Shown here piece by piece: positions 20,166 to 21,674 of a DNA stretch of 64,000 nt. Positions within the stretch are counted from its first letter, which is position 1. Every line of letters begins with the position of its first letter. This stretch comes from Atopobiaceae bacterium. Lineage in GTDB: Bacteria; Actinomycetota; Coriobacteriia; Coriobacteriales; Atopobiaceae. The stretch spans positions 372,001 through 436,000 of the forward strand of contig JALCUE010000001.1 of NCBI GenBank assembly GCA_022655215.1, written 5' to 3'. Both the position numbers and the translations under genes were made by a program. The notes below the pieces were generated by a model that worked only from the letters and a program-made list of their open reading frames with translations, did no database searches and was not told the origin of the DNA.

Positions 20166-21203
20166 ATGGACACGTTCATCGACTACATATCCTCGCTTGA
20201 TTACTGGCGGACGCACGTCCTGCCGGCGGGAGGACTGCCGCCGCCGCGGGACGGTCGCGTGGCCGAGGGCATCGACGCCCTCTTCGAGCGATCCCACCCG
20301 ACCTCCTCGGAGCTCCCCGCAGATGAGCTCGAGCGTCTGGGCTTTCCCTTGGAGGGTCTCTCCCTTCTGGTGCCGAGCCAGCGGGCACGTGTGTCCAACG
20401 CCAGCTTCGAGACGCGTGTCTGGGGAGGGCGTCTTCCCGCGGCCGCCTTCCACCGCGTCTCCGAGCACGTCTACATCTGCACGCCCGAGTTCGTGCTCCT
20501 CCGCATGGCGAGCGTGGCCGGAACGTCGGACATGGATGCCTCCGGTGCCTTGGCCTGCGTCGTCTCGCTGGCCTTCGAGCTGTGCGGTGGCTATGCGTTG
20601 TCTGCCACGGACGACCGCGGCTTCATCGACCGTCTGCCCGTCATGACCGCCGCGTCCCTCGGCGACCTTCTCCTCGACGCGGGGTCGGCCAATGGCATCC
20701 TGCTGGCAAGGCGAGCGCGCGACCTCGTCCTCGAGGGGACGGCGAGCCCGATGGAGGCCGTGATGGCAGCGACGCTCACCCTGCCCCGACGCCTTGGGGG
20801 ATACGGCCTGTCGGGGCCGATCGCCAACCATCGCGTCGATGTCCCGGACCACGCTCGCGGGATGTCTGGCCAGGCCTTCTACCTCCTCGACCTCTGCTAT
20901 CCCGATGCGAAATGCGACGTCGAGTACGACAGCGAGGGATTCCATGCGAACGCGGCCGGGATGGAGAGGGACGCCAAGCGGAGGAACACCCTCTCCTACC
21001 TTGGATACGAGACGATCACGGTGACCAACGGCCAGCTGCGTTCCGTCTCTCGTATGGATCAGGTCGCCAGACAGGTCGCGAAGGCCATCGGCAAGAAGTG
21101 GAAGAAGGTTGCCTATGACGACGTCTCGCTTCGGGTCGAGTTGCGTCGCAACCTCCTCGCGTATCGCGGATGTCTGCCTCCGGTGGGCGAGCGGCATCCC
21201 TAA
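20166..21203 (+). CDS. Hypothetical protein with a DUF559/Vsr-like nuclease domain
   Basis: I do not recognise a named gene. The 345-residue protein has two parts. Residues about 70-160 resemble the C-terminal part of AbiEi-type antitoxin/regulator proteins (VWGGRLPAAAFHRVSEHVYICTP). Residues about 245-295 (CDVEYDSEGFHANAAGMERD, then RR..L..LGYETITVT) match the DUF559/Vsr pattern of PD-(D/E)XK-fold nucleases. There is no clear ribosome site; a TATGGT box at 20149-20154 would place transcription start almost at the ATG, so it may be leaderless. The stop codon lies inside the first copy of the 29-bp repeat that continues downstream. The two may be linked, for example as a nuclease with its target. 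Function unknown. Confidence 0.75.
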   Translation: MDTFIDYISSLDYWRTHVLPAGGLPPPRDGRVAEGIDALFERSHPTSSELPADELERLGFPLEGLSLLVPSQRARVSNASFETRVWGGRLPAAAFHRVSEHVYICTPEFVLLRMASVAGTSDMDASGALACVVSLAFELCGGYALSATDDRGFIDRLPVMTAASLGDLLLDAGSANGILLARRARDLVLEGTASPMEAVMAATLTLPRRLGGYGLSGPIANHRVDVPDHARGMSGQAFYLLDLCYPDAKCDVEYDSEGFHANAAGMERDAKRRNTLSYLGYETITVTNGQLRSVSRMDQVARQVAKAIGKKWKKVAYDDVSLRVELRRNLLAYRGCLPPVGERHP

Positions 21204-21221
21204 CCGTTCGATTCTGGTCCC
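21193..21221 (+). repeat. 29-bp repeat, unit 1 (forward)
   Basis: First copy of an unrecognised repeat with core TAACCGTTCGATTCTGGT. It begins GGCATCCC, overlaps the last codons of the upstream gene and supplies its TAA stop. Confidence 0.9.
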
Positions 21222-21234
21222 GCCTACCCGTGCT

Positions 21235-21263
21235 GGCATCCCTAACCGTTCGATTCCGGTCCC
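21235..21263 (+). repeat. 29-bp repeat, unit 2 (forward)
   Basis: Same 29-bp unit as unit 1 with one change (TTCTGG to TTCCGG), 42 bp further on. It could fold with unit 3 (six mismatches in 29). Confidence 0.9.
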
Positions 21264-21276
21264 AAAGGCCCTCCTC

Positions 21277-21305
21277 GGTACCAGAATCAGGCGGTTAGTG
21301 ATGCC
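21277..21305 (-). repeat. 29-bp repeat, unit 3 (inverted)
   Basis: Inverted copy reading GGTACCAGAATC then AGGCGGTTAGTGATGCC on the plus strand. It differs from unit 2 at six positions, mainly in the middle TTCG, so the centre is variable while the flanks are kept. Confidence 0.88.
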
Positions 21306-21382
21306 GAATTCGGATTCTATGCACGGGTACATCCATCCCAGGCTTGTCTCCGTCGAGTTATGCAGTCAGCCCTGTTCTGCCG

Positions 21383-21445
21383 TCACTAACCGTTCGATTC
21401 TGGTACCGACACGCCTTCGGAGTACCAGAATCGAACGGTTAGTGA
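21383..21445. repeat. Perfect 24-bp inverted repeat (units 4 and 5)
   Basis: 21383-21406 (ending CGATTCTGGTAC) and 21422-21445 (starting GTACCAGAATCG) are exact reverse complements over 24 bp, separated by a 15-base spacer. Transcribed RNA would form a very stable hairpin. It is the same family as units 1-3. No T-run follows, so it is not a simple terminator. Confidence 0.93.
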
Positions 21446-21674
21446 GGCTTCCAGCCACATCCGGCTGCCAATCCATCCCTCGGCCGCCACGCCGGACGTC
21501 CCGCCACTCCACGGCCTCCATGTCTCGGCTCTGTGGAGAATGGCCCGTCGAATGCCCCGCCTTGCGCCTGCCTTGGCCCATTCCGCGCGGCCCGGCCTTC
21601 CTTTTGCTACAATCCCAACCGATACGAGCGGGCATGTGCCCGCCGGGACAAGTCCGTTAGGAGCGCAACACCCC

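Follow-up and report, generated by a model that had tools for sequence, protein, structure and literature searches.

The gene and its adjoining repeats

The locus described here raises the question of whether a nuclease-like gene and the short repeats at its 3' end belong together as an enzyme and its target. The gene is at positions 20166–21203 (forward strand) of the window, i.e., the whole 64-kb stretch of DNA analyzed. It encodes a Vsr/DUF559-like protein of 345 aa (ORF list, and alignment A1 of 58 family members). The original prediction was of such a gene followed by a five-copy repeat array, and core searches find the five copies. Copy 1 is at 21193–21221 (core 21201–21218, forward strand), copy 2 at 21235–21263 (core 21243–21260, forward, one mismatch), copy 3 is inverted at 21276–21306 (core 21280–21297, reverse strand, three mismatches), copy 4 is at 21379–21407 (core 21387–21404, forward) and copy 5 at 21422–21445 (core 21424–21441, reverse). 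Copies 4 and 5 provide the left and right arms (21383–21406 and 21422–21445) of an inverted repeat that is perfect over 24 bp, the arms being 15 nt apart. The TAA stop codon of the gene (21201–21203) coincides with the three bases that open the core of copy 1. The perfect inverted repeat, and a stop codon within the first copy, had been predicted. Copies 1 and 3 represent an imperfect inverted pair that is 84% complementary. The five copies of the 18-bp core compare with 0.03 expected by chance in the 64-kb window, and no shuffle reached five; a chance origin of the repeats is therefore not possible.

The distance from copy 3 is 37 bp to copy 2 and 107 bp to copy 4. Copies 3 and 4 form a REPIN-like unit (21276–21407, not assigned to a strand) that consists of two inverted copies at 107-bp spacing with a variable middle of ~85 nt. 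The geometry of this unit is repeated in the same genome at C2:40775/40882, 318828/318937 and 542988/543095. The direct repeats and uniform unique spacers of a CRISPR array are not present in the window, where orientation is mixed and spacing unequal. The earlier exclusion of CRISPR thus holds, but the description of the spacers as varying is only partly correct, as distances of 37 and 107–109 bp recur. As RNA, the repeat block is predicted to fold much more stably than shuffled sequences (z = -8). An Rfam search with the hairpin at 21379–21447 gave miRNA models only, far below the cut-offs, and these matches are probably due to chance.

No repeat 10-mer is found in the 600 bp 5' of the gene. 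The locus is a one-sided (3' only) member of the gene-repeat arrangement of the family described below. From translations read by eye, one flanking gene is 5-formyltetrahydrofolate cyclo-ligase-like, and the other is small, membrane/zinc-ribbon-like and located upstream of thrS.

The predicted nuclease domain

The protein has two parts. The N-terminal region (residues 1–183, positions 20166–20714, forward strand) is modeled mostly with confidence by AF2, shows no convincing PDB match by Foldseek and is a candidate for the part that recognizes the repeat. Residues 184–312 (20715–21101, forward strand) represent a predicted PD-(D/E)XK-type nuclease domain, as determined by AF2, Foldseek and alignment column counts. 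The pLDDT is 92 for the whole protein and 94.7 for the C-terminal domain alone. The predicted fold has an alpha-beta-beta-beta-alpha-beta (H-E-E-E-H-E) core, which is of the PD-(D/E)XK type. When the domain is compared with the PDB, Foldseek finds I-Bth0305I (prob 0.99) and NGO0050 (prob 0.92), with modest E-values of which none is below 0.001; in a viral library it finds Vsr/DUF559 endonucleases (prob 1.00). The whole protein gave poor PDB matches and the separate domain better ones. A profile search also gives I-Bth0305I (E = 1.6e-4). The model thus agrees with the DUF559/Vsr-like nuclease originally proposed, and with the PD-(D/E)XK fold that structure prediction had been expected to give. 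Among further Foldseek matches of this domain are several mitoribosome proteins of Toxoplasma (prob up to 0.99), perhaps via RAP-type Vsr-like domains.

Residues S194, E197, N221, D242 and E253 are invariant in 58/58 members of alignment A1, H260 is kept in 57/58, D269 in 56/58, and R272 is nearly invariant. The predicted acidic active site is thus invariant throughout the 58 sequences. Pfam alone is insufficient to settle the nuclease assignment: the window protein is under the DUF559 cut-off (16.1 vs 20.6 bits), and at E ≤ 0.01 only 9/58 members match DUF559 and 11/58 match MTES_1575. There are weak family matches to PvuRts1I and mREase_II. No AbiEi Pfam match is present in the window protein at E ≤ 1. 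Two of the five mycobacterial-type relatives scanned have AbiEi-type modules, one an AbiEi_4 match above the cut-off (4.6e-9) and the other a weak AbiEi_1 match; such a module is plausible as a DNA-recognition part.

Repeats and paralogues in the same genome

The genome of the window (G000) is 2.0 Mb in three contigs. Dispersal of the repeat was counted by sequence patterns and in sampled regions. The window core is found at 23 sites with ≤3 mismatches, in about eight loci; a lone three-mismatch site at C3:64700 may be a chance match. In 139 other genomes of the same taxonomic family there is no site at ≤2 mismatches, and the window repeat gave no match when GTDB contigs and IMG/VR were scanned for the palindrome. 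Within its own genome the repeat is extragenic, multi-copy and inverted. Inverted core neighbors are 37 bp apart and the next core is 107–109 bp further on, spacings that recur at several loci.

The original prediction expected this repeat beside homologues of the gene elsewhere. It is absent there, and the homologues have repeat families of their own instead. The loci inspected have mutually unrelated neighbors (cysteine desulfidase-like/RNase H, leuB, galE, uppP, GH3 and others, from translations read by eye), and the window repeat was therefore rejected as a marker of the gene family. Repeats spread over the genome but not associated with the gene family had been named as the result that would speak against a REP-like repeat with a cognate nuclease; taken literally, this would have led to a wrong rejection of the idea.

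The gene family has five paralogous copies in this genome, and members are present in 30 of 40 relatives. Four of the five each have an inverted-repeat family of their own nearby, and these families differ from one another. The paralogue at C1:936523 is bracketed by TTTCTTTCGATAGGAGCAT inverted pairs, as read from its flanks. There are exactly five such elements in the genome, two at this gene and three elsewhere, and in 5/5 the spacing is 110 bp. The paralogue at C1:903456 is bracketed by copies of GAATTCRCGCCCAATGTACGAT, and that at C3:126958 has a further inverted pair. No clear flanking repeat was found at C2:268613. The within-genome paralogues compared are mostly <55% identical and their repeats are generally different.

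Two repeat families co-occupy three loci of this genome (C1:1030588–1030767, C2:363231–363421 and C3:79441–79632). In these, half-sites of the window class adjoin a second inverted-repeat element with AAATCGCGTCGAGTGTACGA arms about 108–128 bp apart, which is related to the repeat of paralogue C1:903456.

Family-linked repeats in other genomes

Dispersed repeats linked to family genes are also found in other genomes and are mostly intergenic. Gene L144 of genome G003 is linked to the palindrome TTGCGGRGAAMCGNTTCYCCGCAA, which is present at 56 sites and on both sides of that gene, with spacings commonly of 38 and 105–106 bp; none was found in eight other genomes. The repeat linked to gene L025 in genome G022 has nine sites in that genome and none in the other genomes checked. 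For all queries, hits amount to 3.0/Mb in sampled regions of the same genome, a figure whose G000 part is favored since some regions were fetched because they bear repeats, vs 0.024/Mb in other genomes. A spacing near 105–112 bp recurs between repeats of unrelated sequence.

Linkage was measured by a flank score, for which the 500 bp on the 5' side of a gene were compared with the 500 bp on its 3' side and the highest-scoring ungapped match (+1/-2) was taken. The first set consists of 63 family genes from 15 genomes, with 306 control genes taken from sampled regions, for the most part in these genomes. A score >14 is found in 32/63 family genes vs 12/306 controls, and a score ≥20 in 27/63 vs 2/306 (p = 2e-21); mismatched pairs of upstream and downstream flanks have a maximum of 14 in 300 draws. 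A replicate set of 56 further genes, nearly all from new genomes, gives ≥20 in 16/56 vs 0/400 mismatched pairs. The arrangement extends to other classes of Actinomycetota, with scores >14 in 23/29 family genes vs 7/200 controls (mostly from the same genomes) and ≥20 in 16/29 vs 1/200 (p = 7e-16). Mismatched pairs there reach 20 in 5/400, perhaps because some genes of the same genome share repeats. In a second test, of inverted repeats inside one flank, many of the control matches are copies of family-linked repeats. A permissive blastn of whole 400-bp flanks was rejected; its many matches looked like conserved coding neighbors, and later comparisons were restricted to the repeat pieces in common.

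That gene and repeat are linked is thus established as a property of the family, although a sizeable share of the Coriobacteriia members has no both-side repeat at the threshold. Among 58 Coriobacteriia-order members, protein and repeat similarity are uncorrelated apart from a few close pairs, and the argument for recognition there therefore rests on linkage. The original suggestion of a REP-like family with a cognate nuclease is borne out as to arrangement, which recurs with a different repeat for each homologue and far above controls; as to recognition by the protein, we infer it.

Mycobacterial relatives

When GTDB contigs were scanned with L287, a distant relative, 66 named loci were obtained, almost all from Mycobacterium, Mycolicibacterium and Mycolicibacter. 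These genes are bracketed by shared repeats, with scores ≥20 in 41/66 and >14 in 49/66. The repeats are mostly GAGCAGACGC hairpins; their outer stem resembles GCGAGCAGACGC, and the inner stem varies between subfamilies. The density of the GAGCAGACGC 10-mer is 2.63/kb in the DNA up to 300 bp from the gene and 0.012/kb in the remainder of these loci, a difference of ~200-fold. The repeat overlaps the stop codon in 17/46 loci, as in the window, and in the examples read the upstream repeats are between the preceding gene and the start codon.

In these relatives repeat similarity tracks protein identity (rho 0.65, 0/2000 permutations). The mean repeat score is 11 at 50–60% protein identity and 27 above 85%. 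The simplest cause would be that the protein acts on its repeat; part of the co-variation could reflect shared ancestry without functional matching.

Genome G300 is of mycobacterial type, as its family genes match mycobacterial loci. In 440 kb sampled from it, 9 of the 11 strongest hairpins belong to the GAGCAGACGC-type family, and there is no family gene in the sampled regions. Extrapolation gives an estimate of roughly 100 copies per genome. All nine hairpins are intergenic, six of them between convergent genes, at a distance of 1–20 nt or with a slight overlap.

Four stray GAGCAGACGC sites, none of them in a gene flank, were considered as a test of mobility and set aside. Their counterparts in relatives are ~80–93% identical over nearly the whole surroundings, which are therefore read as conserved, probably coding sequence and give no filled/empty comparison. 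Repeats L326 and L327 are filled in both relatives. No filled/empty pair was found among the stray sites, L326 and L327.

A proposed nuclease-repeat partnership

Linkage, dispersal within the genome of origin, recurring spacing, co-variation, and the predicted nuclease fold with its invariant residues together argue for a cognate nuclease. The window gene is probably a chromosomal nuclease and the cognate enzyme of the repeat family that adjoins its 3' end, with each paralogue serving repeats of its own. The protein would recognize its inverted-repeat element, probably via the N-terminal region, where the AbiEi-type module of some mycobacterial relatives is found, and the Vsr/EDxHD-like PD-(D/E)XK domain would cut DNA at or near the element. 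Repair or rejoining could then copy the short element to intergenic sites elsewhere. The element would be a non-autonomous passenger and the gene mostly stationary and vertically inherited, like REPINs and RAYTs. Binding and cutting are put forward as putative activities of the protein, and dispersal by cutting and repair is proposed by analogy with REPIN-RAYT.

REP repeats occur in many bacterial genomes, and CGTC-REPs are described mainly from alphaproteobacteria. In the REPIN-RAYT system a single-copy gene is beside its own class of repeats, which form inverted doublets at a fixed distance and are dispersed extragenically (PMC3116915). The present family is similar in that a genome has several such genes, each beside a repeat class of its own (4/5 in G000), and in that the repeats are extragenic, palindromic or inverted, and multi-copy. 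The genes are likewise single-copy. Exceptions are C2:268613, which has no clear repeat, and the duplicate L114/L116 in G022. Inverted doublets have conserved spacing (37/107–109 bp, 110 bp in 5/5, and 38/105–106 bp). The enzyme is different: RAYT is an HUH Y1 transposase (IS200/IS605-like), whereas the protein here is a predicted PD-(D/E)XK nuclease (Vsr/DUF559). G000 has no Y1_Tnp (PF01797) match.

REPs of the GTAG class have RAYTs as candidate enzymes, and a CGTC class is noted without a dedicated transposase (PMC3733652). No GTAG tag is present in the five repeat sequences inspected here. The CGTC-tagged REPs of that study are similar to the present repeats as short extragenic palindromes without a RAYT partner, but there is no CGTC tag common to the present repeats as a class. 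Of solved nuclease domains, that of I-Bth0305I and the EDxHD homing endonucleases is the nearest by profile and, when the fold matches are limited to nucleases, also by fold. I-Bth0305I is a phage homing endonuclease, whereas here no intron was recognized and the partner is a repeat family.

The arrangement looks like that of REPINs and RAYTs built on an unrelated, non-homologous enzyme, and the gene-plus-repeat partnership looks unreported. No paper that links DUF559 proteins with such repeats was found in the open-access literature, and novelty is proposed tentatively. Chances are about even for a broader proposal, that a separate class of intragenomic repeats is widespread in Actinomycetota, in which a genome often has several Vsr-type PD-(D/E)XK nucleases that each drive the spread of their own hairpin repeat and have evolved independently of RAYT. 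Such nucleases could be the enzymes that other 'orphan' REP families lack. In Coriobacteriia-type genomes and in mycobacteria, an unrelated nuclease family here stands to its repeats as RAYT does to REPs. If this holds, it would represent a second, independent origin of repeat-plus-enzyme partnerships. It would also give a possible function for a largely uncharacterized, multiplied gene family, and a protein-DNA pair that is directly testable.

Alternative explanations and inheritance

Antitoxins of the AbiEi type (type IV toxin-antitoxin) bind to inverted repeats in the promoter of their own gene. With AbiEi-type modules in some mycobacterial-type relatives and upstream repeats that precede the start codon, the protein might be an autoregulator of this kind, the repeats operator sites near its own gene and others, and the nuclease domain secondary. 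This is unlikely. Repeats are also downstream of the genes, in the window only so, and a position between convergent genes, as in G300, is not that of a promoter. Unlike AbiEi, the protein has a C-terminal nuclease domain, with active-site residues invariant in 58/58, and no AbiEii-like toxin gene was recognized beside the window gene in neighbor ORF translations read by eye.

The relationship of the family to restriction and Vsr enzymes (the weak PvuRts1I and mREase_II matches) would also fit a nuclease that cuts foreign or mispaired DNA, with the repeats as decoys, protected sites or a maintenance signal and the pair persisting for a protective or addictive reason, not by dispersal. The family is largely chromosomal, as this explanation would have it: the window protein has no match to annotated phages, and the mycobacterial-type relative L287 has a single weak plasmid match. 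We regard it as quite improbable, as no methylase or partner gene was recognized beside the window gene (neighbor ORF translations, by eye), and the multiplication of species-limited repeats in intergenic space is left unexplained.

An ordinary insertion sequence, with the dispersed elements as its MITEs, would account for terminal inverted repeats and for miniature copies of ~125 bp. One recent duplication of a gene plus flanks is found in G022, where L114 and L116 are 91% identical and have flanking repeats in common. However, no other near-identical copies are present among the genes compared, and the low identity and different repeats of within-genome paralogues do not fit. Inheritance is also mostly syntenic. 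L044 (G000) and L030 (G001, same genus) are in the same place with flanking DNA that is 81–86% identical; the proteins are 50% identical and the repeats, by eye, are related but changed. Close mycobacterial orthologues are mostly syntenic, although a few are without the L287 neighbors, as a mobile gene would be. An insertion sequence is thus a poor prospect.

That the repeats are terminators or mRNA-stabilizing hairpins spread by recombination, and are only incidentally near the gene, agrees with strong hairpins at gene ends but is highly improbable given how rare both-side repeats are at ordinary genes (2/306, 1/200) and that the sequence of the mycobacterial repeats changes with the protein; termination may be an additional role of the repeats and not the cause of linkage.

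Two further observations were made. Family genes L125 and L144, from different genera, both adjoin a tRNA-Leu (CAG) gene, and the similarity of their flanks was rejected as a repeat since it includes this common tRNA. Region L169 (G016 C1:1000001–1020000) has an inverted repeat with 54-nt arms and a 151-nt loop, which is possibly another dispersed family.
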